Assembly: GCA_029010715.1 (NCBI GenBank)
Contig: JAQXKZ010000010.1
Location: 1 to 64,000 of the forward strand
Source: Clostridiales bacterium
GTDB lineage: Bacteria; Bacillota; Clostridia; Oscillospirales; Oscillospiraceae
DNA: 64,000 bases
Direction: 5' to 3'
Shown piece by piece: positions 1 to 57,102 of the stretch (the stretch's first letter is position 1; every line of letters begins with the position of its first letter). Under the pieces are notes generated by a model, which was not told where the DNA came from, searched no databases, and worked only from the letters and a program-made list of their open reading frames with translations. The position numbers were made by a program, and so were the translations under genes.

Positions 1-154
1 ACAGACTGTCATATTCGGAAACATATATCCATCTCCGGGCAGGCACGGCTTTCATCACAGCCGTGCCTGCTTAAATATTGTATTCATAAAGCTCTGGTTT
101 ACTTTGCCGGCGGTTTATGCTAGAATGTTTCCATTACGAAATCGGGAGTACAGT

Positions 155-1225
155 ATGTTTGATAAGCTGAAGCTTCTTCAAAATCAATATGAGCTCCTCT
201 GCGCGCGTTTAGAGGAACCGGCGACCTATTCCGATCCGGCAGTTTACGCGAAATATGAGCGTGAGGCTCGCGAAATACAGCCCATAGTAAAGGCCTATAC
301 GGATTACTCCCATGCCTGTGCATGTATGGACGAGGCTATGGAACTGATGGGTGACAGTGAGATGCGCGAGCTTGCGCAGGAGGAGTATGCCCAGGCAAAG
401 GCCGATAAGGAACGCCTTGAACAGGAAATAAAGATCCTGCTGCTGCCAAAGGACCCGAACGACGGAAAAAACGTGATCATGGAGATACGCGGCGGCGTCG
501 GCGGGGAAGAGGGCATGCTCTTTGCGGCGGATCTTTTTCGCATGTACTCGATGTACGCTGAGTCAAGAGGCTGGAAAATAGATGTTGCCAATGTCAGCGA
601 AACCGAGCTCGGCGGTATAAAGGAGATCAGTTTTGTAGTTGAAGGTGACGGCGCATACTCGCGTCTGAAGTTTGAAGCCGGCGGCCACCGTGTTCAGCGC
701 GTTCCCGTGACCGAGTCCGGCGGACGCATACACACCTCTGCCGCCACAGTTGCGGTGCTGCCGGAGATAGAGGAGATAGACTTTCATCTCAACCCGGCTG
801 ATTTGAAGATCGACACCTACCGTTCATCCGGTGCAGGCGGTCAGCATGTAAACAAGACCGAGAGCGCCATACGTATCACACATATACCGACAGGTACGGT
901 CGTGGAATGTCAGGACGAGCGGAGCCAGTATAAAAACAAAGACCGCGCTATGCAGATCCTGCGCTCGAAGCTATACGAAGCCGAGCAGGCAAAGCAGCAT
1001 GCCGCCCTTGCGAACGAACGTCGCAGCCAGATCGGCTCAGGCGACCGGAGCGAGCGTATACGCACCTACAATTTTCCGCAAAACCGCGTGACCGACCACC
1101 GTCTGAGCGGAGACAACAAGAATTTCAATATCCAGAATATTATCAACGGCGACCTCGACCCGCTGATAGACTGCCTTGTTACCGCCGATCAGGCGGCCAG
1201 GCTGCAGGCACAGACGGAGGCGTGA
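155..1225 (+). CDS. prfA: Peptide chain release factor 1 (RF1)
   Basis: ORF 104..1225; likely start ATG 155 (MFDKLKLLQNQYELL). GGQ motif in YRSSGAGGQHVNKTESAIRITHIPTG. Confidence 0.97.
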   Translation: MFDKLKLLQNQYELLCARLEEPATYSDPAVYAKYEREAREIQPIVKAYTDYSHACACMDEAMELMGDSEMRELAQEEYAQAKADKERLEQEIKILLLPKDPNDGKNVIMEIRGGVGGEEGMLFAADLFRMYSMYAESRGWKIDVANVSETELGGIKEISFVVEGDGAYSRLKFEAGGHRVQRVPVTESGGRIHTSAATVAVLPEIEEIDFHLNPADLKIDTYRSSGAGGQHVNKTESAIRITHIPTGTVVECQDERSQYKNKDRAMQILRSKLYEAEQAKQHAALANERRSQIGSGDRSERIRTYNFPQNRVTDHRLSGDNKNFNIQNIINGDLDPLIDCLVTADQAARLQAQTEA

Positions 1226-1226
1226 G

Positions 1227-2435
1227 ATGGAAACAAAGATATTCAAAAACACCGCGGGAGGCGCGGCGGAAATAATAAAGCGCGGCGGCCTTGTCGCCGT
1301 GCCGACCGAGACCGTATACGGTCTTGCGGCCAACGCTCTCGATCAGGCTGCCGTATCCGGGATATACGAGGTCAAGGGCCGCCCCGCAATAAAACCGCTG
1401 TCTCTGATGGTACCGGATCCTGCGGCAATGGATGAATACTGTATTGGCGTTCCCGCGCAGGCGCGCACGTTGGCTGCGAAATACTGGCCCGGTCCGCTTA
1501 CAATAGTCATGAAGGCGAAGCCGGGGATACCGTCAATTGTCCTTGCCGGCGGCAGCACAGTGGGGCTGCGCTGTCCGGACCACCCGCTTACCCTGGCGTT
1601 GCTGCGCGGCTGCCATGTGCCGCTCGCGGCCCCATCCGCAAACCCGTCAGGTGCAGAGAGCGCCAGGGATGCATCGAAGGTACTGGAGTATTTTGACGGA
1701 AAGATCGATGCCGTCATCGACGGCGGACACTGTGGCCTGGGACGCGAGTCCACGATCATCGACATGTGCGCTGCGCCGTACCGTATTCTGCGTCAAGGCG
1801 CGCTTCCGGCGGACGATATTGCCGACACGCTTGCGGACACGCTGAAGATTGTCGGTATCACCGGCGGGACCGGCTGCGGCAAGACAACCGCCCTGAACGA
1901 GCTGCAGGAAATGGGCGCGCTGATTCTTGACTGTGACGCAATATATCACGAGCTGCTGGAAAACAGCAGGGAACTCATCGCCGAGATAGATAAATTTTTT
2001 CCGGGCGCGGTGCAGGACGGCGTACTCGACCGCAAAGCGCTGGGTGCGCTTGTGTTTACCGACGAAGAGGCCCTGCGTGACCTCAATATCATCACGCATA
2101 AATATGTGCACATTGAGGTCCGCCGCCGTCTGCGCGAGTTTGCCATGGCCGGCGGCGCCATAGCCGCGATTGATGCAATCGAGCTCTTTTCCAGCGGATT
2201 GAATAAACGCTGCTTCAAGACTCTGGCTGTGCTTTCCGATCGGGAACACAGGGTGCAGCGTATAATGAGCCGTGATAATATTACCCGCGAGTACGCTCTT
2301 ATGCGCATCAATGCCCAGCGCCCTCCCGAATACTATGAGAGCAGGTGCGATTTTACTTTGTACAATAATGCTGACCGCGAGCAGTTCAGGAATGACTGCC
2401 GGCAGCTTTTTAAGGAGATGTTTAACAATGGATGA
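1227..2435 (+). CDS. Fusion protein: threonylcarbamoyl-AMP synthase (TsaC/YrdC) N-domain + dephospho-CoA kinase (CoaE) C-domain
   Basis: N-half GGLVAVPTETVYGLAANA..KGRPAIKPLSLMV..APSANPSG is TsaC/Sua5-like. C-half LKIVGITGGTGCGKTTALNELQEMGALILDCDAIYHELL is CoaE with a Walker A motif. One uninterrupted ORF. Confidence 0.93.
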   Translation: METKIFKNTAGGAAEIIKRGGLVAVPTETVYGLAANALDQAAVSGIYEVKGRPAIKPLSLMVPDPAAMDEYCIGVPAQARTLAAKYWPGPLTIVMKAKPGIPSIVLAGGSTVGLRCPDHPLTLALLRGCHVPLAAPSANPSGAESARDASKVLEYFDGKIDAVIDGGHCGLGRESTIIDMCAAPYRILRQGALPADDIADTLADTLKIVGITGGTGCGKTTALNELQEMGALILDCDAIYHELLENSRELIAEIDKFFPGAVQDGVLDRKALGALVFTDEEALRDLNIITHKYVHIEVRRRLREFAMAGGAIAAIDAIELFSSGLNKRCFKTLAVLSDREHRVQRIMSRDNITREYALMRINAQRPPEYYESRCDFTLYNNADREQFRNDCRQLFKEMFNNG

Positions 2436-3810
2436 AATCAAAAGCAAGCTGTTTTATGAGCAGAAGAACGGCTATGACCTCATCGACACCGCCGAGCGCG
2501 TGGCCGTTGAGGACTACTGCCGGGAGTATATGGAGTATCTGAACATATCGCGTACCGAGAGAGAGGCTGTCATCAATGCCATAGATAAGGCGAGAGAATA
2601 CGGATTTGTCGAATTCCGCGCCGGGATGGAGCTGCGTCCCGGGATGAAAGTCTATTACTGCAACCGCGGCAAGGCGCTTATTCTGGCTGTAATCGGCAAG
2701 CACAGTCTCGCCGACGGCGCGGTCATTGCAGGAGCGCACGTCGACGCCCCGCGCATAGATCTCAAACAGAACCCCATGTATGAGACAGATGAGCTGTGCT
2801 ACTTCCGCACGCACTACTACGGCGGTATCAAAAAGTATCAGTGGGTTACCATCCCGCTTGAGCTGCACGGCGTTGTCGTACTCAAGGACGGCACTGTTGT
2901 CGACGTGTGTATCGGCCGCGAGCCGGGAGAGCCCCGTTTCGTTATCACCGACCTGCTGCCGCATATGGCGCAGGAGCAGGCCAAAAAGACTATGGCCGAA
3001 GGCATTACCGGCGAAGGCCTGCAGATTCTGCTCGGCTCCGTCCCCTATGCCGGCGACGGCAAAGACAGAGTCAAGCTCGCAGTCATGAGCATACTCAACG
3101 ATATGTACGGCATTACCGAGGAAGACTTTCTCTCGGCAGAGCTGACCGCGGTCCCGGCCTTCGATGTCTGCGAAGTCGGGCTTGACCGTTCTCTCATCGG
3201 CGGATACGGCCATGACGACAGGGTCTGCGCCTATGCCGAACTCAAAGCCATCTTCGACGTTAAGGATCCTGAGCGTACCTGCATATGCATTCTCGCCGAC
3301 AAGGAGGAGATAGGCTCCGACGGCGTGACCGGTATGCAGAGCGCCGCATTTGACTGCTTCATGGAGGACCTGTGCGCCTCTCAGGGTGTAGAGCTCCGCC
3401 GCTGCTATGAGAACAGCTTCTGTCTCTCCGCCGACGTGACCGCCGCCTTCGATCCTCTCTATTCCGACGCATATGAGAAGTCCAACGACGCCAAGGTCAA
3501 CTATGGTATGGGCATCTGTAAATTTACCGGCGCAAGAGGCAAATCCGGCACCAGCGATGCATCCGCGGAAGTCGTCGCGTATCTGCGCCGGCTGTTCGAT
3601 AAGGCAGGCGTTGTGTGGCAGCTCACCGAGATGGGCAAGGTCGACCTCGGCGGCGGCGGCACGATTGCCAAATACATGGCCAACCGCAACATAGATACCA
3701 TTGACGCCGGCGTACCCGTGCTCAGCATGCACGCTCCGTTTGAAGTCGTATCCAAATTTGACTGCTATATGACCTACAAGGGCGTTCTCGCAGCGTATAA
3801 TGACGACTGA
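2428..3810 (+). CDS. M18 family aminopeptidase
   Basis: ATG 2428 MDEIKSKLFYEQKNGYDLID; GAHVDAPRIDLKQNP, DKEEIGSDGVTGMQS and GYGHDDRVCAYAELKA are typical of M18 metallo-aminopeptidases. Confidence 0.93.
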   Translation: MDEIKSKLFYEQKNGYDLIDTAERVAVEDYCREYMEYLNISRTEREAVINAIDKAREYGFVEFRAGMELRPGMKVYYCNRGKALILAVIGKHSLADGAVIAGAHVDAPRIDLKQNPMYETDELCYFRTHYYGGIKKYQWVTIPLELHGVVVLKDGTVVDVCIGREPGEPRFVITDLLPHMAQEQAKKTMAEGITGEGLQILLGSVPYAGDGKDRVKLAVMSILNDMYGITEEDFLSAELTAVPAFDVCEVGLDRSLIGGYGHDDRVCAYAELKAIFDVKDPERTCICILADKEEIGSDGVTGMQSAAFDCFMEDLCASQGVELRRCYENSFCLSADVTAAFDPLYSDAYEKSNDAKVNYGMGICKFTGARGKSGTSDASAEVVAYLRRLFDKAGVVWQLTEMGKVDLGGGGTIAKYMANRNIDTIDAGVPVLSMHAPFEVVSKFDCYMTYKGVLAAYNDD

Positions 3811-3816
3811 CGCGAT

Positions 3817-3846
3817 GTAAACGAACGTTCACAAACGATCGTTTAC
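3817..3846. repeat. Hairpin GTAAACGAACGTT-CACA-AACGATCGTTTAC
   Basis: Inverted repeat 12/13 bp directly read, just after the M18 stop; shares the 12-mer GTAAACGAACGT with 39891 and 39961. Confidence 0.7.
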
Positions 3847-3860
3847 CGATATCCGAGATA

Positions 3861-3898
3861 AATAAACCGGGCACTTCAGACTGTCCGGTTTATTTTTT
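3861..3898 (+). terminator. Rho-independent terminator
   Basis: AATAAACCGG...CCGGTTTATTTTTT stem followed by T tract. Confidence 0.85.
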
Positions 3899-4027
3899 CG
3901 CACTGTACACAGAATATATCCGGAATGTGTTTATACCGGAAGCTCGTAAACAGCCCTGAAAGCGTTTTATTTAATTTATTACGAGACATTCGGTTCACAG
4001 AATCAAACGCGTGTACGGGGTGATACA

Positions 4028-4702
4028 ATGCCTGAGGAAGAAAACAATAACGTGCCAAATGCCGTCGAAGAAATCAGGGAATTAGGTCAGACAAGGCAGG
4101 GGAGCATTCATTGTCTGAGTATCATTGGTCAGATAGAGGGCCACCAGATACTTCCGGACGATGTTAAAAGCACAAAGTATGAGCATATACTCCCTATGCT
4201 TGCCGCGATTGAGGAGACGCCGGAGATTACCGGCTTGCTGATATTGCTCAATACCGTCGGAGGAGACGTGGAGGCCGGGCTGGCCATAGCCGAGCTAATA
4301 GCCGGAATGTCCAAGCCCACTGTCTCTCTTGTGCTCGGCGGGGGACATTCGATCGGCGTCCCGCTTGCTGTCGCCGCCAGGCGCAGCTATATTGCGCCTT
4401 CAGCGTCCATGACCGTGCATCCGGTGCGCATTAACGGACTCTTTATCGGCGCTCCGCAGACCTATGACTATCTTGCCCGTATTCAGGATCGAATAGTAAA
4501 CTTTGTCACCGCACATTCAGGCATCAGCCGTAGCGAATACGTCCGCCTTATGTCTGATACCGGGCAGCTTTCCAACGATGTTGGCACGATACTTTCCGGT
4601 CAGGAGGCTGTCGGCTGCGGACTGATAGACAGTCTGGGTACGCTCTCCGACGCGCTGAGCTGTCTGAAGTCGTTAAATACTGTACCGCCGCCGGAGAACT
4701 GA
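4028..4702 (+). CDS. tepA: ClpP-like serine protease, TepA/YmfB family
   Basis: LLILLNTVGGDVEAGLAIAELI, GGGHSIGVPLAVAA, SASMTVHPVRINGLFIG; ClpP fold with candidate Ser and His. Confidence 0.88.
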   Translation: MPEEENNNVPNAVEEIRELGQTRQGSIHCLSIIGQIEGHQILPDDVKSTKYEHILPMLAAIEETPEITGLLILLNTVGGDVEAGLAIAELIAGMSKPTVSLVLGGGHSIGVPLAVAARRSYIAPSASMTVHPVRINGLFIGAPQTYDYLARIQDRIVNFVTAHSGISRSEYVRLMSDTGQLSNDVGTILSGQEAVGCGLIDSLGTLSDALSCLKSLNTVPPPEN

Positions 4703-4722
4703 ATTCTTGTAAAAGCGCAGTA

Positions 4723-4762
4723 TAAACCAGTCAAGAATGCTTAATTGGCTGGTTTTTATTTT
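4723..4762 (+). terminator. Rho-independent terminator
   Basis: AAACCAG..CTGGTTTTTATTTT downstream of tepA. Confidence 0.7.
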
Positions 4763-4867
4763 GTGAACACCGATTTAACATATCGTTCGGCATCTTGATA
4801 TGCAGCGGCGCCTCTGCTATAATATTAGAATTAAAATGAATTACATCTCTCAAAGAGGAAGTAATAA

Positions 4868-7036
4868 ATGGGACTGCCTGCAAAACTTATCAGATCACAG
4901 CTTAATTTTTTCAAGCCGTTTGTGGCCGCATGCTCGCTTGAGGTGACCAGAAAAGGGCAGGACAAGCTCGGCGAACTTATGGAGGCAATACACCGGCATA
5001 ACGTAATTATTAAAGATCATCCCTTCGACAATTTTGAAGGCGCATGGATTGTGCCCAGGGAGGAGCGCCGCTCCGGCGTTGTACTGTATCTGCACGGCGG
5101 CGGCTATGCCTGCGGCGATCTTGAATATGCCAAAGGCTTCGGTTCGACTCTTGCCGCCGAGTGCGGTGTGCGTGTGTTCTGCTCCGCCTACCGTCTTGCA
5201 CCGGAGGAGCCGTATCCCGCTGCGCTTGATGACGCGGAGGAGAGCTACCGCTATCTTCTCTCCAAAGGCTATACTCCGGGTCAGATATGTCTCTGCGGTG
5301 AGAGCGCCGGCGGCGGACTGATATATGCTCTGTGCCTGCGCCTGAAAGAGAAAAATATGAAACTCCCATGCGGGATCATTGCTATCTCGCCGTGGACGGA
5401 TCTCACCTGCTCCGGCGGCAGCTATGAGACGAACATGGAGAAAGATCCTTCACTTACCGCTGAGCTCCTGCATTTTTACTCCGACTGCTATGCCGGTGAG
5501 CATACGCCCAAGGACGCTCCCGAGCTTTCGCCCCTCTTCGGTGATTTGTCCGGTATGCCTCCTTCACTGATATTTGCCGGCGGAGACGAGCTGCTTCTTG
5601 ACGACTCAAAACTTATGCATGAGAAACTGCTCAAAGCCGGCTGCAAAAGCCAGCTGTTCATAGCCCCCGAGCGCTGGCATGCATATGTACTGTATATGCT
5701 CAACGAAAACGTGTCTGACTTTGACGAGATGAATAAATTTCTCACCAGAGTCATGGCCGCTGAACAAAAGCAGAACTGGCTCCGTCTGGATAACGCCGCC
5801 AAGATCTACCCTGCGGCCCTGCGTAAGAACTGGAGCAACGTGTTCCGTATTTCCGCCACGCTCAGCGAACCGGTGGACAGGGAAATCCTCCGCGCCGCTC
5901 TGGACGTGACCATACGCCGCTTCCCGTCTATCGGCGTCAGACTCCGTCGCGGCCTCTTCTGGTTCTATCTGGAGCGCATACCTGAGCCGCCCGGTATACA
6001 GGACGAGAACAGCTATCCGCTGGTCCATATGTCGTATAAATCCATACGCAACTGCGCTTTCCGCGTGCTGGTGTATGAAAACCGTATCGCCGTCGAGATC
6101 TTTCACGCCCTTACCGACGGCACCGGCGGCCTGATTTTCCTGAAAACTCTTGTGGCCGAGTACCTTACACACAAATACGGGATAAGTATTCCGGCGACCG
6201 ACGGTGTGCTCGGACGGCTGGAAGAGCCGTCCGCCGAGGAACTGGAGGACAGTTTTCTAAAGCATTCCGGCCCCTTTGCCGCCAGCCGCAAGGAGGCTAC
6301 CGCCTACAAACTCAGCGGCGCAGCGGAGCCGGATGGTTTTGTGCATCTGACGACCTTCATGCTGGACTCTGCCGCAGTCCTCGCCAAGGCCCACGAGTAT
6401 TCTGCGACAGTAACGGAATTTCTGACGGCCGCCATGATGCAGGCTGTTCTGCATCTGGAAGCCGAGCAGGTACCCTGCCGCCGGCTGCGCAAGCCTGTCA
6501 AAGTGCTTGTCCCGGTCAATTTGCGAAAGCTGTTTCCGAGCAAAACGCTTAGGAATTTTGCCCTTTTTGTCACGCCCGAGATCGACCCGAAGCTCGGTGA
6601 CTACAGCTTTGAAGAGATCTGCAGCGCTGTGCGGCACCGTATGGGCATGGAGGTCACTGCCAAGCAGATGAGCACGAAAATTGCCGCAAACGTCAACAGT
6701 GAGAAATCACCCTTCCTGAAGGTCATGCCTCTGGTCGTGAAGAATGCTGCCATGAAAGCCGTGTTTGACACGGTTGGTGAGCGCAAGTCCTGCCTCTGCA
6801 TGTCGAATCTGGGTCTTGTAAAGCTTCCGGAAGTCATGCGGCAGTACGTAAAGCGTATGGACTTCATTATCGGCCTTCCCTCCAGAACCGCATATAACTG
6901 CGCGCTGCTGTCTTATGACGGGACGGTGTACATCAATCTCGTCCGCAGTATCCGGGAGCCCGAACTTGAGATGCAGTTCTATAAGGTCCTGCGCGAGCTT
7001 GGCATCCATGTCAGGGTGGAGAGCAATCAGCGCTGA
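4868..7036 (+). CDS. Fusion protein: alpha/beta hydrolase (HSL-type esterase) + CoA-dependent acyltransferase/condensation-like domain
   Basis: N-half: LYLHGGGYACGD, CGESAGGGLIYAL, WHAYVLY (HGGG oxyanion hole, GESAGG nucleophile, His). C-half: VEIFHALTDGTGGLIFLKTL (HxxxDG) with long acyltransferase-like tail. Confidence 0.85.
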   Translation: MGLPAKLIRSQLNFFKPFVAACSLEVTRKGQDKLGELMEAIHRHNVIIKDHPFDNFEGAWIVPREERRSGVVLYLHGGGYACGDLEYAKGFGSTLAAECGVRVFCSAYRLAPEEPYPAALDDAEESYRYLLSKGYTPGQICLCGESAGGGLIYALCLRLKEKNMKLPCGIIAISPWTDLTCSGGSYETNMEKDPSLTAELLHFYSDCYAGEHTPKDAPELSPLFGDLSGMPPSLIFAGGDELLLDDSKLMHEKLLKAGCKSQLFIAPERWHAYVLYMLNENVSDFDEMNKFLTRVMAAEQKQNWLRLDNAAKIYPAALRKNWSNVFRISATLSEPVDREILRAALDVTIRRFPSIGVRLRRGLFWFYLERIPEPPGIQDENSYPLVHMSYKSIRNCAFRVLVYENRIAVEIFHALTDGTGGLIFLKTLVAEYLTHKYGISIPATDGVLGRLEEPSAEELEDSFLKHSGPFAASRKEATAYKLSGAAEPDGFVHLTTFMLDSAAVLAKAHEYSATVTEFLTAAMMQAVLHLEAEQVPCRRLRKPVKVLVPVNLRKLFPSKTLRNFALFVTPEIDPKLGDYSFEEICSAVRHRMGMEVTAKQMSTKIAANVNSEKSPFLKVMPLVVKNAAMKAVFDTVGERKSCLCMSNLGLVKLPEVMRQYVKRMDFIIGLPSRTAYNCALLSYDGTVYINLVRSIREPELEMQFYKVLRELGIHVRVESNQR

Positions 7037-7057
7037 GCGCTGCGGCTGCAGAAAGGA

Positions 7058-7765
7058 ATGAGTAATATGTATTGTATAAAATGCGGCGTTGAACTTGCCG
7101 ACAGCGAGAGAAAATGTCCGCTGTGCGGCACGGTCGTGTTTAACCCCGAGCTGAGCCGTCCGGACGGACGTCCGCCGTTTCCCAGAGAAAAGCTGCCTGC
7201 TCCCGAAAAGGTAAACCGTTCCGGCGTGATGTTCGTGGTCACAATGATTTTCCTTCTTCCTGTCGTCACGACACTCCTGTGCGACTGGCAGCTTAACGGG
7301 CATATTGTCTGGTCCGGATATGCGGTCGGCGCTATCGTACTGTTTTACACCCTGGTAGTGCTCCCGATGTGGTTCCGTTCGCCTAACCCCGTCATATTTG
7401 TTCCTGTCGACTTCGCGGTTACTGCGCTGTATTTGCTTTATATCAACTGTGCGACCGGGGGACATTGGTTTTTGAGCTTTGCCCTGCCGCTCACTGCCGC
7501 TGCGTGTCTTATACTTACCGCCGCCATTGCACTGCTGCGCTACCTACGCAAGGGCTATCTGTTTATATTCGGCGGCACGCTGATATTGTCCGGCGCGTAC
7601 ACTGTGCTCCTGGAGTTCCTGTTAAACCTGAATTTCAAATTACACAGCGGGTTCATATGGTCGTTCTATCCTTTCTCCGTGAGCTTTATTCTCGGCATGA
7701 TGCTGATCGTCATCGGTATCTGCAGGCCGCTCAGAGACTCTCTCCATAAAAAGTTTTTCCTTTAA
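7058..7765 (+). CDS. Zinc-ribbon membrane protein (DUF6320-like)
   Basis: MYCIKCGVELADSERKCPLCGTVVFNPE zinc ribbon followed by about six hydrophobic helices. Family name from memory, not searched. Confidence 0.75.
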   Translation: MSNMYCIKCGVELADSERKCPLCGTVVFNPELSRPDGRPPFPREKLPAPEKVNRSGVMFVVTMIFLLPVVTTLLCDWQLNGHIVWSGYAVGAIVLFYTLVVLPMWFRSPNPVIFVPVDFAVTALYLLYINCATGGHWFLSFALPLTAAACLILTAAIALLRYLRKGYLFIFGGTLILSGAYTVLLEFLLNLNFKLHSGFIWSFYPFSVSFILGMMLIVIGICRPLRDSLHKKFFL

Positions 7766-12651: not shown

Positions 12652-15291
12652 ATGTCTCAGGCAAAAAAATCAACTCCATCAAAGAAGAAAAACGCCTCAT
12701 CCAAAAAAACAGGCTCCAGATCCCAGTCAACGCAGCCGCCGGAGCAGGTAGTGCCGATACGCCGCGAGGTCGGCGCAGTGCTGAGTCTGTTTCTGGCTCT
12801 GTTTGTCGGCATCAGCTATTTCATGAATGAAGGGGCGTTTATCCTCTTTTTCTCAAATCTCATAAAAGGTCTTGTGGGATGGGGCTACTGGCTGACCGCT
12901 CCGGTGTTTCTGCTTATTGCCGTCATCCTTGGCTTCCACCGCGGCAGGCCCGTAAAGCTCCGGGTTTTCTGCGCGCTGATGATCCCTATACTCTTTGCCT
13001 CCGTCATGAGCCTGATTATGTATAAATATCAGCTCGGCGGAGGAGACATAAAGGTGATCTCCGGCCTTCTGTTTGAGCAGGGCCAGCGGCTCGATTCTGC
13101 CGGTACTCTGGGAGGGCTGCTCGCATACGGCCTGGAAATGGCTTTCAGTATCTACGGAGCCCTGCCGGTCCTTCTTGTCTGCCTTGTGTTCGCCGTTATT
13201 TTCTCCATGAGCGGCAGCTTCACCAGGGTCGCGAGCAAGGTAAAGCTTCAGGTCGAGGCAAAATACGACCCTTCAATGTATGAGGATACTCTCAGGCCGG
13301 TCAACTCGGTAGCCGGAAGGATACCTGTCAGTAACGAACCCAAAAAGATTGAGCGCATCAACCGTGCCGCATATTCAATGGACATTCCTCTCGGCGAGGA
13401 CGACGACGTACTTACGCTTCTTGACGGCCGCGGCGCCGGTACAAAGCCGTACACTGCCGACAGCGCAGAGAGCCGGCGCGGGAAGAATTCCGTAAAGAAG
13501 GGTATGCTGCCCGTAACGCCGACGGACGGCGTTGCGCCGCTGTCCATGAAGGAGGCGGCGAGCCTCGCCGGCGTGCAGCTTAATGAGCCTTCGCTTAAGC
13601 AGGAGCCCAAAAAACCCGAGAGCAAAAGCTCCACCGTTTCCGCGGAAATATCCGACCCGCCCAAAATCAGGAAGCTGGACCGTGCCGCAGTCGAGGCCGA
13701 GGCTCAGGCTATGGCCGAGACCATATCCGCGACTGAGGACAAGCCGGACTATCGCTTTCCCTCGCCTTCACTCCTGCGCAGCAGCAGCGGAGTGACCGTG
13801 GACTCCCGGGATGAGATAATAACCAACCGTGAACGCCTAGAGGGGGCCATCCGAAGCTTTGGCATAAGCGCCTCCATCGTCGGCGTGACCCGCGGTCCCA
13901 CGGTTACGCGTTATGATGTTGAGCTCGATCAGGGCGTCAAGCTCGCCAGAGTCACAAACCTTGCCGGTGACCTTGCGCTTGCGCTCGGCGTCGTGAACGT
14001 GCGTATAGCCCCCATACCGGACAAGATATCCACTATAGGCATAGAGGTGCCTAACAGGATCATCAGCACCGTGTACCTGCGCGACATAATAGAATCCCCG
14101 AAATTTACCAACGCGAAATCCAAGCTCAGCTTCGCGCTCGGCAAGGACATAAGCGGCGACTGCGTCGTCGGCAATATTGCGAAGCTCCCGCACATGCTTA
14201 TCGCAGGTACTACCGGCTCAGGTAAATCCGTCTGCATGAACTCGCTTATTCTCTCCCTGCTGTACAAAGCAAGGCCTGATGAGGTGCGTCTGATAATGAT
14301 CGACCCAAAGATGGTCGAGCTCGGCGTGTACAACGGGATCCCGCATCTGTATGTCCCCGTTGTCACCGATCCGAAAAAGGCCGCCGGAGCGCTGCAATGG
14401 TCCGTTGTCGAGATGCTGAAACGCTACAGGCTGTTCTCTGAGGTGGGGGTGCGTGATCTTGAGAACTACAACAGGCACTGCGAGGCGTCAGGCGAGCAGA
14501 CTCTGCCGCAGGTCGTCATAGTTATAGACGAGCTGGCCGACCTTATGCTTGTTGCCTCCAAGGAGGTCGAGGAGAGCATCTGCCGCGTTGCCCAGATGGG
14601 CCGTGCCGCCGGTATGCACCTTATAATTGCGACCCAGCGTCCGTCTGCGGACGTTATCACGGGTCTGATGAAGGCGAATATCCCTTCGCGTATCGCTTTC
14701 GCTGTCTCGTCCGCTATGGAGAGCCGTATAATCCTTGACCAGGGCGGCGCCGAAAAGCTTATCGGTATGGGTGACATGCTGTTCTCTCCGGTCGGCTGCG
14801 GCAAGCCGATACGTATTCAGGGAGCCTTTGTTTCCGATGAGGAGCGCGAGGACGTCATTCAATTCATCAAAGAGGGCTCCGGCAGCGTCCAGAGGAATGA
14901 TGAGATAGAGGAATTCATGAACAAGGCAGCCGAGGATAAGGCCTCCTCCGGTGACGGCGGTAAAGCTTCCAGGGAGGAAAAAGGCGGTCTGGGCGGTTAT
15001 GACGAGATGCTGCCGCAGGCTGTCGAGGTCGTACTTGAGACAAGGTCCTGCTCTGTCTCTATGCTCCAGAGACGTGCAAAGCTCGGCTATTCCAGGGCCG
15101 CACGCATAGTAGACCAAATGGAGGAGCTGGGCATAGTCGGCCCATATGAAGGGGCCAAGCCCCGCCAGGTCATTATAGACCGCGACGGCTGGAATCAGAT
15201 ACAGCACCGGCTTGGTATTATAAGCGACGAGGATCTGGGCTGTGCTGCCGGCATGAACGCAGATACAGAAAACTACGACTCTGAAGGCTGA
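12652..15291 (+). CDS. ftsK: DNA translocase FtsK/SpoIIIE
   Basis: N-terminal TM helices; HMLIAGTTGSGKSVCMNSLI; VVIVIDELADLMLVASKEVE; C-terminal gamma-like winged helix. Confidence 0.96.
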   Translation: MSQAKKSTPSKKKNASSKKTGSRSQSTQPPEQVVPIRREVGAVLSLFLALFVGISYFMNEGAFILFFSNLIKGLVGWGYWLTAPVFLLIAVILGFHRGRPVKLRVFCALMIPILFASVMSLIMYKYQLGGGDIKVISGLLFEQGQRLDSAGTLGGLLAYGLEMAFSIYGALPVLLVCLVFAVIFSMSGSFTRVASKVKLQVEAKYDPSMYEDTLRPVNSVAGRIPVSNEPKKIERINRAAYSMDIPLGEDDDVLTLLDGRGAGTKPYTADSAESRRGKNSVKKGMLPVTPTDGVAPLSMKEAASLAGVQLNEPSLKQEPKKPESKSSTVSAEISDPPKIRKLDRAAVEAEAQAMAETISATEDKPDYRFPSPSLLRSSSGVTVDSRDEIITNRERLEGAIRSFGISASIVGVTRGPTVTRYDVELDQGVKLARVTNLAGDLALALGVVNVRIAPIPDKISTIGIEVPNRIISTVYLRDIIESPKFTNAKSKLSFALGKDISGDCVVGNIAKLPHMLIAGTTGSGKSVCMNSLILSLLYKARPDEVRLIMIDPKMVELGVYNGIPHLYVPVVTDPKKAAGALQWSVVEMLKRYRLFSEVGVRDLENYNRHCEASGEQTLPQVVIVIDELADLMLVASKEVEESICRVAQMGRAAGMHLIIATQRPSADVITGLMKANIPSRIAFAVSSAMESRIILDQGGAEKLIGMGDMLFSPVGCGKPIRIQGAFVSDEEREDVIQFIKEGSGSVQRNDEIEEFMNKAAEDKASSGDGGKASREEKGGLGGYDEMLPQAVEVVLETRSCSVSMLQRRAKLGYSRAARIVDQMEELGIVGPYEGAKPRQVIIDRDGWNQIQHRLGIISDEDLGCAAGMNADTENYDSEG

Positions 15292-15325
15292 GTAAACGGG
15301 CGTTTATAAGCGCCCGTTTACTCAG
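15288..15325. repeat. Perfect 15-bp hairpin overlapping the ftsK stop codon
   Basis: CTGAGTAAACGGGCG-TTTATAAG-CGCCCGTTTACTCAG; TGA stop at 15289-15291 lies in the left arm; no T tract. Confidence 0.8.
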
Positions 15326-38691: not shown

Positions 38692-38720
38692 TTGACATAA
38701 TTAATCCGCCGTTTTATAAT
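38692..38720 (+). promoter_or_regulatory. Consensus sigma-A promoter for the recombinase gene
   Basis: TTGACA-N17-TATAAT exact consensus. Confidence 0.85.
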
Positions 38721-38771: not shown

Positions 38772-38799
38772 AGTTCGCATAATATAAATTAAGCGAACT
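38772..38799 (+). other. Putative dif-like chromosome dimer resolution site
   Basis: AGTTCGCATAA-TATAAA-TTAAGCGAACT: two 11-bp arms (10/11 inverted match) and 6-bp centre, immediately 5' of a Xer-family recombinase gene. Confidence 0.65.
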
Positions 38800-38826
38800 T
38801 CAAACCTCGTTTTAAAGGAGTCATAT

Positions 38827-39837
38827 ATGAATCTGGATCAAATCTGCGATATCCCGGATATACTCATGGAGTTCCTGGAGTATCACTCGACGGTGAGAGG
38901 GCATTCCGACAGGACCGTAGCCGGATACTATCTCGATTTAAAAATTCTTTTTCGATACCTGAAGCGCCGCAGACATCTTGTGCCGCGCGATCTTCCATTC
39001 AATGAAATTGATATAACCGACGTGGACCTCGACTTTATAAAATCCATTAAAATTGAGGAACTGTACAGATACCAGTCTTTTTCTCCGGCAATGGAAAACT
39101 CGCCGAATGCGCTGTCTGCTGCAAGCCGCTGCCGACGGAGTTCCTCGGTCAAATCTTTCTTCAGCTATCTTACATCTAAACGGCACCTGCTTGACTATAA
39201 TATATGTCAGGAGCTTGATATGCCCAAGCGTCAGGCCTCGCTCCCGAAGTACCTGGAAGAATCCGAATGTGAGCGTTTGCTCGCCGCGTGTGACGGTCCG
39301 TTCGGATACCGCGACTACTGCATCCTGATGCTGTTCCTGTCATGCGGTCTGCGCGTCTCTGAACTTGTTTCGCTTAATACCACGGATGTGTATGAGGACC
39401 ACGTGCGCGTACTCGGCAAAGGCAATAAGGAACGAATCGTGTTTTTTGCCGAAGGCTGCCGAGAAGCCATTGATGACTACCTTGCGGTGCGGAATGCGGA
39501 AAAGCTGGCGCCGGAGGACAGGAACGCCCTGTTTATCAGCCGCGATAACCGCAGGATAAGCGTTCGCGGAGTTCAGAAAATGGTCGATAAAAAACTAAAG
39601 CTCGCCGGACTGGACAGTACGCGCTACTCGCCGCACAAGCTAAGACATACTGCGGCGACTCTAATGCTTAAAAACGGCGTCGATACACGTGCACTTCAGG
39701 AGGTTCTGGGTCACAGCAACTTAAACACAACTCAAATATACACACATTTGGATAACAGCGCGCTGCACGAAGCAGCCATGGCCAATCCTATCGGCCGCAA
39801 AACTAAGAACGAAGTTGATGACAATCAGGTAACATAA
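38827..39837 (+). CDS. Tyrosine recombinase (XerC/XerS/XerH-like)
   Basis: Catalytic residues present: GLRVSELVSL (R), LGKGNKERIV (K), SPHKLRHTAAT (HxxR), LGHSNLNTTQIYTHL (H, Y). Confidence 0.93.
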   Translation: MNLDQICDIPDILMEFLEYHSTVRGHSDRTVAGYYLDLKILFRYLKRRRHLVPRDLPFNEIDITDVDLDFIKSIKIEELYRYQSFSPAMENSPNALSAASRCRRSSSVKSFFSYLTSKRHLLDYNICQELDMPKRQASLPKYLEESECERLLAACDGPFGYRDYCILMLFLSCGLRVSELVSLNTTDVYEDHVRVLGKGNKERIVFFAEGCREAIDDYLAVRNAEKLAPEDRNALFISRDNRRISVRGVQKMVDKKLKLAGLDSTRYSPHKLRHTAATLMLKNGVDTRALQEVLGHSNLNTTQIYTHLDNSALHEAAMANPIGRKTKNEVDDNQVT

Positions 39838-39968: not shown

Positions 39969-40724
39969 TTACTTCTCTTCTGCTGGAATTGCTGAACCTA
40001 TATCAAAAGCATGTTTATCAGTTAAGAACAAAGCCTCAATGTTATGTAAACCTAAGTAATCAATTATCGCAGCCTTATCCGGATGTGCATCAAGATTACC
40101 GGTAAAGGCCATGGTCTTATTCGATATTTTAAACGCTGCTCCTCCGATAAACCCGTAGTCAAAGCCTGGCAATTCAATATACCCGGGCCGAATCTTCAGC
40201 ACATCCATACCCGCAGCGATCGCTGCCCGGTATATTCCCCCGTCCGAAGTGATTATGGCCGTGCTGTTAACCACACAGGAAGAGCATCTGGCATACCCTT
40301 GCCTGCTCTCGACTGCCTTCTTTTTATGAACATTTGTGAAATAATTCACTATTGGGGGATAACTGTTTACTTTGCTGTAAATGACATATTTCCCGGCCGC
40401 ACATATGTTCAGCTGCGCATCATATGGGTAATTCGGTGCCTGTGCGATGTCGGCATACTCAGTCCTGAATCCCCTCTCCCGCAGCTTATGTGCAAAAGCA
40501 CTGTTCTTCAGGTAAGGGGCCAGCAGCATCTTATCCCCTCCCAAATGCAGGACGGAGATGTCCGCATGTCCGGACAGACGCCTGTCGATCTGCGGATTAT
40601 CGGGCATCGGGATTGCCTCAATCCCCAGTTTTTTCAAGGGCTCCCGCAGAATTTCCGCATACTTTTCGCCTATTATCACGCTTGCGGCCATGAGCGGCAG
40701 ATTTGCATCTTCTACAAATTTCAT
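39969..40724 (-). CDS. DUF6873-like protein (GME-fold candidate)
   Basis: QGYARCSSCVVNSTAIITSDGGIYRAAIAAGMDVLKIRPGYIELPGFDYGFIGGAAFKI; family assignment from memory. Confidence 0.6.
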   Translation of the reverse strand: MKFVEDANLPLMAASVIIGEKYAEILREPLKKLGIEAIPMPDNPQIDRRLSGHADISVLHLGGDKMLLAPYLKNSAFAHKLRERGFRTEYADIAQAPNYPYDAQLNICAAGKYVIYSKVNSYPPIVNYFTNVHKKKAVESRQGYARCSSCVVNSTAIITSDGGIYRAAIAAGMDVLKIRPGYIELPGFDYGFIGGAAFKISNKTMAFTGNLDAHPDKAAIIDYLGLHNIEALFLTDKHAFDIGSAIPAEEK

Positions 40725-42097
40725 CGTTCTCTCGGCAGCACCACCGCAATGGCTTCGCTTATGGTTTTAACCGGAATAAGCTGAAGCCCGTCGTATTTTC
40801 TGATATCGTCCCTTACATGGGCCGGTATAACACAGCGCTTGAAGCCAAGGCGGTATATCTCCGAAAGTCTTTGATTCAGCGCGCTGACGCTTCTGATCTC
40901 CCCGGACAGTCCGACCTCTCCTATTGCGGCCAGATCGGCGCCCAAAGGCCTGTCCAGATAGCTTGAAGCCAGGGCAAGAGTTGTCGCCAGATCGGCCGCA
41001 GGCTCGTCAAGGCTGAGTCCTCCTATTACATTTATATATGAGTCGCAGCTGCCGACGGACAGCCCCCCGCGCTTATCCAGCACGGCAAGCAGCATGGCGG
41101 CCCGGTTGTAGTCTATGCCGTTGCTGCGTCGCGCCGCGTTGTACTGCGATGGAGTCACCAGTGCCTGCACCTCGGCGAGAATAGGGCGTGTGCCTTCTAT
41201 TACACAGGCCACGCAGGTGCCCGGAGAATTTTCGGGCCTGCCGCTGAGCAGCATCTCTGACGGGTTTTCTACGCATTTGAGTCCGTGATCCTCCATTTCA
41301 AATACGCCGATCTCGTTTGTGGAGCCGAAACGGTTCTTGGCCGCGCGCAGAATCCTGAAGCTCGTGCTGCGTTCGCCCTCAAAATACAGCACGCAGTCCA
41401 CCATATGCTCCAGAACCTTCGGCCCTGCGATGCTGCCCTCCTTGTTTATGTGTCCGACAACAAAGACGCTCAGTCTCTTCTCCTTAGAAAGGCGCATTAT
41501 ACGCATCGTGCACTCGCGTACCTGGGTGATACTGCCCGGGGCAGACGTCACATCCCCGTCGGATATAGTCTGTATTGAATCTATGATGGCTATGTCGGGC
41601 TGCAGTTCGTCAACGGCGGCAATGATCGTGTCAAGATCAGTCTCTGCAAGCACATAGATATCTCCGCCATCGACGCCAAGCCTGGTCGCCCTGAGCTTCA
41701 GCTGCCTCTGGCTTTCCTCGCCCGTAACATAGAGTATGCGGCGCCCGTTCCCGGTTGAAGCGCACATCTGCAGCAGCAGTGTCGACTTGCCTATTCCCGG
41801 CGCGCCGCCTACGAGAACGAGAGACCCGACAACGGCTCCGCCGCCGAGCACCCGGTCAAACTCCGGTATTCCCGTGGAAAAGCGTATTTCCTCCGACGTA
41901 TTCAGCTCCGATAATGGCTGCGCCTTCCCGACAGCGGCAGCGCGCGCTGCGCCGCTGCCTCTCCTGCCTGAGCCGGGATCCAACGCGACCTCCGTCAACG
42001 TGTTCCATGCGCCGCATGCCGGGCATTTGCCGGCCCAGTTCGGCGTCTCATTGCCGCACTCCGAGCAGCAATACACAGTTTTTCTTTTGTTTGCCAT
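40721..42097 (-). CDS. radA: DNA repair protein RadA
   Basis: Zinc finger YCCSECGNETPNWAGKCPACGAW, Walker A GGAPGIGKSTLLLQ, KNRFGSTNEIGVFEM. Confidence 0.97.
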   Translation of the reverse strand: MANKRKTVYCCSECGNETPNWAGKCPACGAWNTLTEVALDPGSGRRGSGAARAAAVGKAQPLSELNTSEEIRFSTGIPEFDRVLGGGAVVGSLVLVGGAPGIGKSTLLLQMCASTGNGRRILYVTGEESQRQLKLRATRLGVDGGDIYVLAETDLDTIIAAVDELQPDIAIIDSIQTISDGDVTSAPGSITQVRECTMRIMRLSKEKRLSVFVVGHINKEGSIAGPKVLEHMVDCVLYFEGERSTSFRILRAAKNRFGSTNEIGVFEMEDHGLKCVENPSEMLLSGRPENSPGTCVACVIEGTRPILAEVQALVTPSQYNAARRSNGIDYNRAAMLLAVLDKRGGLSVGSCDSYINVIGGLSLDEPAADLATTLALASSYLDRPLGADLAAIGEVGLSGEIRSVSALNQRLSEIYRLGFKRCVIPAHVRDDIRKYDGLQLIPVKTISEAIAVVLPRER

Positions 42098-49949: not shown

Positions 49950-50843
49950 TCATGCTCTCGGATGCGCCTTGTTGTACACATCCTTGAGCTGCTTCTTCAC
50001 GAGTTGCGCGTACATATGCGTTGAGGATATATCGGCGTGGCCGAGCATCTCCTGAATGGCATGGATATCCGCGCCGTTTTCCAGCAGATGCGCCGCAAAT
50101 GAATGGCGCAGGGTGTGCGGTGTTATGTCCTTCTCTATACCGGCCTTCTTCTGATAGTGCTTTACTATCTTCCAGAATCCCTGTCTGGACATACGCTCAC
50201 CGCTGACGTTGACAAACAGCGACTGCTCGTCCGGCATCAGTATCATCTGCGGCCTGACCAGCGTGATATAGTCGCTCAGCGCCTTCACTGCCGCCGGGTA
50301 CATCGGAATGAAGCGCTCCTTGTTGCGGCTGTGGCAGCGGATAACGCCCGCGCCCAGATTAACGTCTCCGATATTGAGGTCGATGAGCTCGGTTACCCTT
50401 ATGCCGGTCGCGTACAGAAGCTCCAGCATGGCTTTGTCTCTGTAGCCCTTCGGGTCTATGCACTCGGGCTGTTCCAGCAAAAGCTCGACTTCCTTGCTTG
50501 TAAGTATCTGCGGCAGCTTCTGGGTGCTCTTATCGGGGATAAGTCCCTGAGCGGGATTTACCGTTATGATCTGCTTTATGAAAAGATGGGCATAGAGGCA
50601 CTTTATTGACGCAATGGACCTGGACACCGTCGCTACCGATCTTCCCTCCGCCCTCAGCATCGCTATGTAGCCCTGAAGGTCGGCGCTCGTAGCGTCGGCA
50701 ATTCCGTTTTCCGAATGGCTGTCAAGATATTCCCCTAACTGTCTTATGTCCCTTAGATAGGAGCTGAGGGTGTTTGGCGATGCCTTTTTTTCATTTGTCA
50801 GATGCTTTTCGAAAAGCTCAATGCATTCCTGATTGGTCATCAA
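49950..50843 (-). CDS. xerD: Tyrosine recombinase XerD-like
   Basis: ATGIRVTELIDLNIGDV, CHSRNKERFIPM, TPHTLRHSFAAHLLENGADIHAIQEMLGHADISSTHMYAQL. Confidence 0.92.
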   Translation of the reverse strand: MMTNQECIELFEKHLTNEKKASPNTLSSYLRDIRQLGEYLDSHSENGIADATSADLQGYIAMLRAEGRSVATVSRSIASIKCLYAHLFIKQIITVNPAQGLIPDKSTQKLPQILTSKEVELLLEQPECIDPKGYRDKAMLELLYATGIRVTELIDLNIGDVNLGAGVIRCHSRNKERFIPMYPAAVKALSDYITLVRPQMILMPDEQSLFVNVSGERMSRQGFWKIVKHYQKKAGIEKDITPHTLRHSFAAHLLENGADIHAIQEMLGHADISSTHMYAQLVKKQLKDVYNKAHPRA

Positions 50844-57060: not shown

Positions 57061-57102
57061 AAAATGTAAAAGGACCGCAAAATTGCGGTCCTTTTACATT
57101 TT
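57061..57102. terminator. Terminator
   Basis: AAAATGTAAAAGGACCGCAA-AA-TTGCGGTCCTTTTACATTTT. Confidence 0.88.

Follow-up and report, generated by a model that had tools for sequence, protein, structure and literature searches.

A dif-type site beside the gene for a distinct Xer recombinase in Oscillospiraceae: a candidate single-recombinase system of Clostridia

The locus and its genes

The 64,000-nucleotide stretch of DNA analysed here (the window) belongs to the 1.99-Mb draft genome of a gut bacterium of the Oscillospiraceae and contains, between a strong promoter and an intact tyrosine recombinase gene, a 28-bp inverted repeat with the 11-6-11 organization of dif, the recombinase being designated XerX. 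The relevant features are listed below.

14998..15177, plus strand: FtsK gamma domain, the C-terminus of the FtsK translocase (97.5 bits; cut-off 30.6)
38692..38720, plus strand: perfect sigma-70-type promoter, TTGACA-N17-TATAAT, upstream of the dif-type site
38772..38799, plus strand: dif-type site, 28 bp, 11-6-11, AGTTCGCATAA-TATAAA-TTAAGCGAACT
38827..39837, plus strand: tyrosine recombinase XerX, 336 aa, with a complete catalytic R-K-H-R-H-Y set and scores below the NCBIfam cut-offs for XerC, XerD, XerA and XerS
40721..42097, minus strand: radA, a host neighbour that also flanks a microvirus provirus (contig L389; 64% identical)
49950..50843, minus strand: XerD orthologue, 297 aa, with Arg at the position of the beta-hairpin catalytic Lys (CHSRNKER)

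The two 11-bp arms match as an inverted repeat at 10 of 11 positions and enclose a 6-bp centre of A and T only, 27 bp (38800-38826) separate the site from the xerX ATG, and the promoter agrees with its consensus at 12 of 12 positions, all as described in an earlier note made from the sequence alone. The likeness to the B. subtilis dif proposed in that note proved loose, the arms having a consensus of their own (ATTATACAAAA/TTTTGTATAAT at class level and AGTTCGC.../...GCGAACT in the genus of the window). The 28-mer is unique at up to three mismatches both in the window, with none expected in shuffled sequences, and in the whole draft genome. An 11-6-11 inverted repeat is not rare in itself, and it is conservation and position that raise the 38772 site above chance: the window holds three such repeats with at least 10/11 matching positions and an A/T centre, this site included. 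The other two (15293-15320 and 57068-57095) are G+C-rich with 6-bp A/T centres and are probably terminators.

Symmetry of the site and the two recombinases

An 11-6-11 site was found upstream of the orthologous xer gene at genus, family, order and class level, so the lack of conservation that the earlier note had named as evidence against a dif was not observed. At loci of close orthologues, titled mostly as uncultured Oscillospiraceae or Ruminococcaceae, the same site mostly lies 44-103 bp before the start codon (for example GGTTCGCATAA-TATCAA-TTAAGCGAACT and ATCTCGCATAA-TATAAA-TTTAGCGAGAT). Across the wider family, the order and the class, the two arms differ in sequence from site to site yet remain mirror images of each other, as in ACTCAACAAAA-TAAAAA-TTTTGTTGAGT, ATTTCGTAAAA-TTAATA-TTTTACGAAAT and ATTATACAAAA-TAAAAA-TTTTGTATAAT. 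Perfect palindromes account for 35 of the 74 distinct 28-mers, and mean arm identity over the 74 is 9.8/11 versus 6.9/11 with shuffled partner arms, symmetry statistics that are partly conditioned by the 8/11 palindrome threshold of the site collection; the scan also required AA/TT framing of the centre. In a control comprising 1.2 Mb of sampled DNA from relatives, the sole two repeats of the motif class (at least 9/11, AA/TT inner ends) adjoin xer, and a second sample that included stretches of genomes G128 and G224 gave a few additional repeats, weaker or unrelated. Some xer loci had no site within about 500 bp (for example L010, L183 and L193).

Several loci depart from the common arrangement. 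In three loci of one class-level family (L286, L288 and L289) the site lies 2.16-2.22 kb after the start of the xerX match, on the far side of the gene. In L052 the palindrome around dif extends to about 44 bp and a gene resembling HNH endonucleases, named from its sequence alone, occupies positions 4187-5000 between dif and xerX. Loci L284 and L291 carry a second perfect palindrome similar to canonical dif, AATTTACATAA-TATATA-TTATGTAAATT, about 970-980 bp after the start of the xerX match and thus shortly downstream of the gene, and the corresponding genomes may hold two kinds of site.

XerX stays below the model cut-offs for XerC (232.8 of 335 bits), XerD (208.8 of 330), XerA (200.8 of 220) and XerS (142.3 of 267). 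In a tree of 78 proteins the 30 XerX sequences form one clade (support 100/98) outside both XerC and XerD. All six catalytic residues (R, K, H, R, H, Y) are kept in 123 of 123 XerX sequences, and an xerX match was obtained in 148 of the 149 genomes of the order; this little-described clade is widespread in Clostridia. Two proteins, L358 and L359, are sister to XerX in the tree on long branches, a position that we do not read as kinship. The long-branch Bacillota proteins L358-L362 were considered as XerS and rejected, L358 scoring 116 bits against the cut-off of 267.

The gene at 49950, reported as XerD-like in the earlier note, encodes a XerD orthologue: with its relatives it is nested in the XerD clade of the same tree, and it scores 327.3 bits against the XerD model (cut-off 329.6). 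The Arg at its catalytic Lys position suggests a presumably non-catalytic or accessory protein. Among 30 XerD orthologues of the family (L254-L283), which are the best matches to the window protein rather than a random draw, this position holds R in 15, H in four, N in one and K in 10, so that the lysine is lost in 20 of 30 with the other five catalytic residues kept; it is retained in 34 of 34 reference XerC and XerD sequences. Of the XerD orthologues read from outside the family, most have a lysine, in some cases within a shifted motif. The own genome contains four integrase-type genes, among which no XerC was found; besides xerX and the XerD orthologue there are one for a 406-aa integrase, close to the end of a contig, and one that is a fragment of 92 aa. 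In one family genome (G012, 95% complete) neither xerX nor the XerD orthologue was matched. FtsK with a gamma domain, the expected activator of Xer recombination, was present in 13 of 13 genomes.

These data bear on the most serious alternative, namely that the site is dif but XerX replaces XerC only and works with the XerD orthologue, one protein per arm, as in E. coli and B. subtilis. The XerD orthologue was matched in 119 of 121 family genomes, usually by full-length orthologues; it keeps R, H, R, H and Y, several class-level XerD keep the lysine as well, and within the genus of the window the two inner arms show a consistent difference (CATAA on the left, TT[A/T]A[G/A]CG on the right). Because the lysine is found in 10 of the 30 family members and in most of the class-level XerD read, a two-recombinase reaction could take place outside the family and perhaps within it. 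Against this, the arms vary together and are so often perfectly palindromic, neither of which would be expected of a site recognized by two different proteins. Of the 28 nucleotides of canonical dif, 16.3 are palindromic on average (PMC2731167), compared with 16-22 arm nucleotides in the sites here and 22 in the perfect ones. The XerD lysine position, too, is frequently altered. We regard such a division of labour as possible but rather doubtful. A single-recombinase reaction, an analogy drawn in the earlier note, is the reading towards which we lean, favoured though unproved on the grounds of arm symmetry, the separate recombinase clade and the decay of the XerD lysine.

Position at the replication terminus and linkage to xerX

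Since the own genome is a draft, its terminus was deduced from the own contig and from complete relatives. On the contig, GC skew is close to 0 before the site, with 82-95% of genes on the plus strand, and about -0.09 after it, with genes mostly on the minus strand, in line with the skew change for which the earlier note had proposed to look. Owing to a nearly flat left side, the cumulative skew has its peak at 27 kb and not exactly at 38.8 kb. The same switch occurs at the site in two congeners (G004 and G110), and a whole-chromosome switch occurs there in the complete chromosomes G098, G078 and G224. G128 has no site directly upstream of xer, and carries a perfect ATTATACAAAA-TTTTTA-TTTTGTATAAT 6.5 kb from the gene and 0.7 kb from the local cumulative-skew peak. 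Measured over 1.4 kb on each side, GC skew is lower after the site than before it in 88 of 91 loci, and a drop is seen at 48% of 500 control positions (Wilcoxon p ~3e-16). In 10 of 10 complete chromosomes, four of whose lengths are rounded values from a search table, base 1 lies within 1.2 kb of dnaA and xer at 0.455-0.588 of the length. The canonical XerCD dif pattern NNTTNNNATAATNNNNATTATGTNAANN had no match in the own genome at up to one mismatch, and the better dif elsewhere that would, by the earlier note, have refuted the reading was not found. The site is thus single-copy, intergenic and placed at a terminus-type skew switch, the marks by which a dif is recognized. Conservation among orthologous loci and the skew switch support the dif reading of the earlier note, and as judged from these genomic patterns 38772-38799 is very probably the dif of this bacterium and the product of the adjacent gene its recombinase.

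The core ACAAAATNNNNATTTTGT was found in 83 of 121 family genomes, mostly at one place in each, the reversed control pattern occurring in four. Where both coordinates were available (62 family genomes), the site lies at most 320 bp upstream of xer in 43; in the other 19 it is 0.5-1 kb away in five, tens of kb away in two (32 and 76 kb) and on a different contig in 12. Adjacency of recombinase gene and dif, looked for in a single-recombinase module, therefore holds for the window, with its 27 bp, and for those 43 genomes. Most of the sites separated from xer also show the skew switch, here in small windows with 1.5-kb flanks. Of 35 loci at genus level, 27 have the promoter ahead of the site, four have the two overlapping and four have the promoter behind the site.

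This distribution also speaks to whether the palindrome serves mainly as an operator through which the recombinase represses its own gene, with the true dif elsewhere. The earlier note had suggested autoregulation; the 27 loci of 35 in which a strong promoter puts the site within the leader agree with it, and a recombinase bound there would block transcription. As the primary role of the site it is very unlikely, given that the promoter overlaps or follows the site in eight loci, that separated sites mostly keep the skew switch, that phages appear to integrate at the site and that sites are found kilobases away or on other contigs; repression may be a side effect and not the conserved feature.

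Phage insertions, known Xer systems and proposed function

A motif scan of viral contigs retrieved two microviruses (L388 and L389) and, with the ATACAAAAT version of the motif, an inovirus (L517); the genus-specific version of the site was found in none of the viral contigs. L389 (7040 bp) has a perfect site at 153, followed by genes for a replication protein, capsid protein F (PF02305, 575.6 bits) and a pilot protein, and carries a second, hybrid site at 5378, TCTAAACAAAA-GCCTTA-TTTTGTTCAAT, the microvirus spanning 153-5405. Past this second site the contig runs into a host radA gene that shares 64% identity with its counterpart in the window, located two genes downstream from xerX. We regard L389 as a provirus. 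Other elements that use host Xer are likewise reported to have one flanking site intact and the other altered (PMC9765430). The microvirus L388 (5272 bp) extends from a close copy of the site at 110 to a perfect one at 5151 (span 110-5178). In L517 (7688 bp), where one boundary only is visible, an xerD orthologue, xerX (48% identical to that of the window) and a perfect site 503 bp from xerX are followed by Rep_trans and Zot-type inovirus genes (1750-7688). XerX gave no tblastn hit in the phage contigs L386-L389. The association supports a real use of the site for attachment, and small phages appear to exploit the XerX system to enter the chromosome. Phage insertions flanked by the site are a genomic sign that it may function as a recombination site.

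Tailed-phage contigs with differing centres were left out of this evidence. L539, L551, L511 and L554 share perfect ATTATACAAAA/TTTTGTATAAT arms, the same site and flanks and a different centre, TACCTA, and L539 encodes a tailed-phage terminase and portal; their sites are possibly att sites, or else binding sites or operators.

Two further explanations carry little weight. A terminator or attenuator folded in the mRNA leader is barely conceivable: as RNA, 11-bp inverted arms around a 6-nt loop are able to fold, and the window does contain G+C-rich hairpins of comparable size, but no terminator was called at the site, no T-run follows it, its A/T-rich centre framed by AA/TT (a requirement of the scan) resembles that of recombination sites, and it is retained outside leaders and seems to act as a phage attachment site. 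That the site is a relic or attachment site of a mobile element and not a chromosomal dimer resolution system is just as hard to credit, for although a tyrosine recombinase with an inverted-repeat site is also the layout of integrase and att, and phages carry the same site, xerX is nearly universal in the order and, in every complete genome, lies close to mid-chromosome opposite dnaA, the genes next to it in the window are chromosomal (radA, for example), no element surrounds it, and phage contigs carry the site without xerX (tblastn of L386-L389).

The dif/XerX module shares traits with each of the described Xer systems. The XerS/difSL system of streptococci and lactococci likewise has a single recombinase whose gene is immediately beside dif at the terminus (PMC5357621, PMC2731167). 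Membership was rejected on model score and site size: difSL is atypical in measuring 31 bp, 11 of them in the centre (PMC5357621), whereas the site here has 28 bp and a 6-bp centre, and XerX reaches 142.3 bits of the 267 demanded by the XerS model. XerH/difH of Helicobacter and Campylobacter also links a single recombinase to inverted repeats with a hexanucleotide centre near the GC-skew peak (PMC2731167), but XerD is still present here; the match of XerX to a solved XerH is weak (64 bits by phmmer, versus 122-124 for XerD and XerA), and the tree contained no XerH sequences. XerL/dif of Legionellales has perfect long inverted arms (10 + 12 bp), and its integrating element leaves one intact and one altered dif (PMC9765430), much as in the provirus L389; dif and xerL are more than 400 kb apart in L. 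pneumophila, whereas here the distance is usually below 320 bp (43 of 62 family genomes). Shared with the XerC/XerD-dif system of E. coli and B. subtilis are a 28-bp 11-6-11 site at the terminus, the FtsK gamma domain and a XerD orthologue, but the arms of the module are almost or fully symmetric and XerX lies outside the XerC and XerD clades; membership in this canonical system was rejected because no XerC was found in the own genome, the site does not follow the consensus and the own XerD has Arg at the lysine position. Small integrase-less microviruses inserted at the host dif are described from Bacteroidetes and enterobacteria (PMC3091885, PMC7062461), from which those here differ by XerX-type host arms and by a Clostridia-like flank (the radA of L389). 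By analogy, the best reading is a single-recombinase-like Xer/dif module comparable to XerS/difSL, XerH/difH and XerL/dif, with a recombinase clade of its own that is set apart from XerC, XerD and, by model score, XerS.

In the mechanism that we propose for this dif/XerX module, two XerX subunits would bind the near-identical 11-bp arms of each site. When sister chromosomes are joined by homologous recombination, FtsK would bring two dif copies together at the septum, and XerX would cleave through its tyrosine at the edges of the 6-bp centre, strand exchange restoring monomers. The order of strand exchange could be set by the slight inner-arm asymmetry in the genus (CATAA left, TTAAGC right) or by an asymmetric centre elsewhere. 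The XerD orthologue would probably be accessory in this family and not an essential second catalyst, and integrase-less small phages would integrate through the same XerX/dif reaction. On the strength of the comparative data, we consider it reasonably likely that much of Clostridia uses a single-recombinase system in which a XerX homotetramer acts on a perfectly palindromic 11-6-11 dif usually beside its own gene, that the XerD of the family is losing catalysis and is kept for another role, and that the system is also the route of integration for microviruses and inoviruses of gut Clostridia.

A literature search for dif specific to Clostridia or Oscillospirales, with most subscription papers outside its reach, found nothing relevant. 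In an HMM survey of 2011, which took in only strains with XerCD orthologues, dif was predicted for 97 of 100 Firmicutes (PMC3025954). Some of the sites described here may already figure in that survey under the XerCD label, and the novelty of a Clostridia XerX/dif system is provisional. The site, if our reading is true, would be a precise marker of the terminus for draft genomes of uncultured Clostridia, and the attachment sites would link integrase-less gut phages, microviruses and inoviruses, to their hosts.

To our knowledge, the bacterial single-recombinase Xer systems are few, being those of streptococci and lactococci, of some epsilonproteobacteria and of Legionellales. A single-recombinase XerX/dif system would extend this kind to large parts of Clostridia, abundant gut bacteria included. 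The symmetric site raises the question of how recombination is given a direction when both arms are identical, and the retention in the same genomes of a XerD with a drifting catalytic lysine would constitute a natural experiment on two recombinases becoming one.
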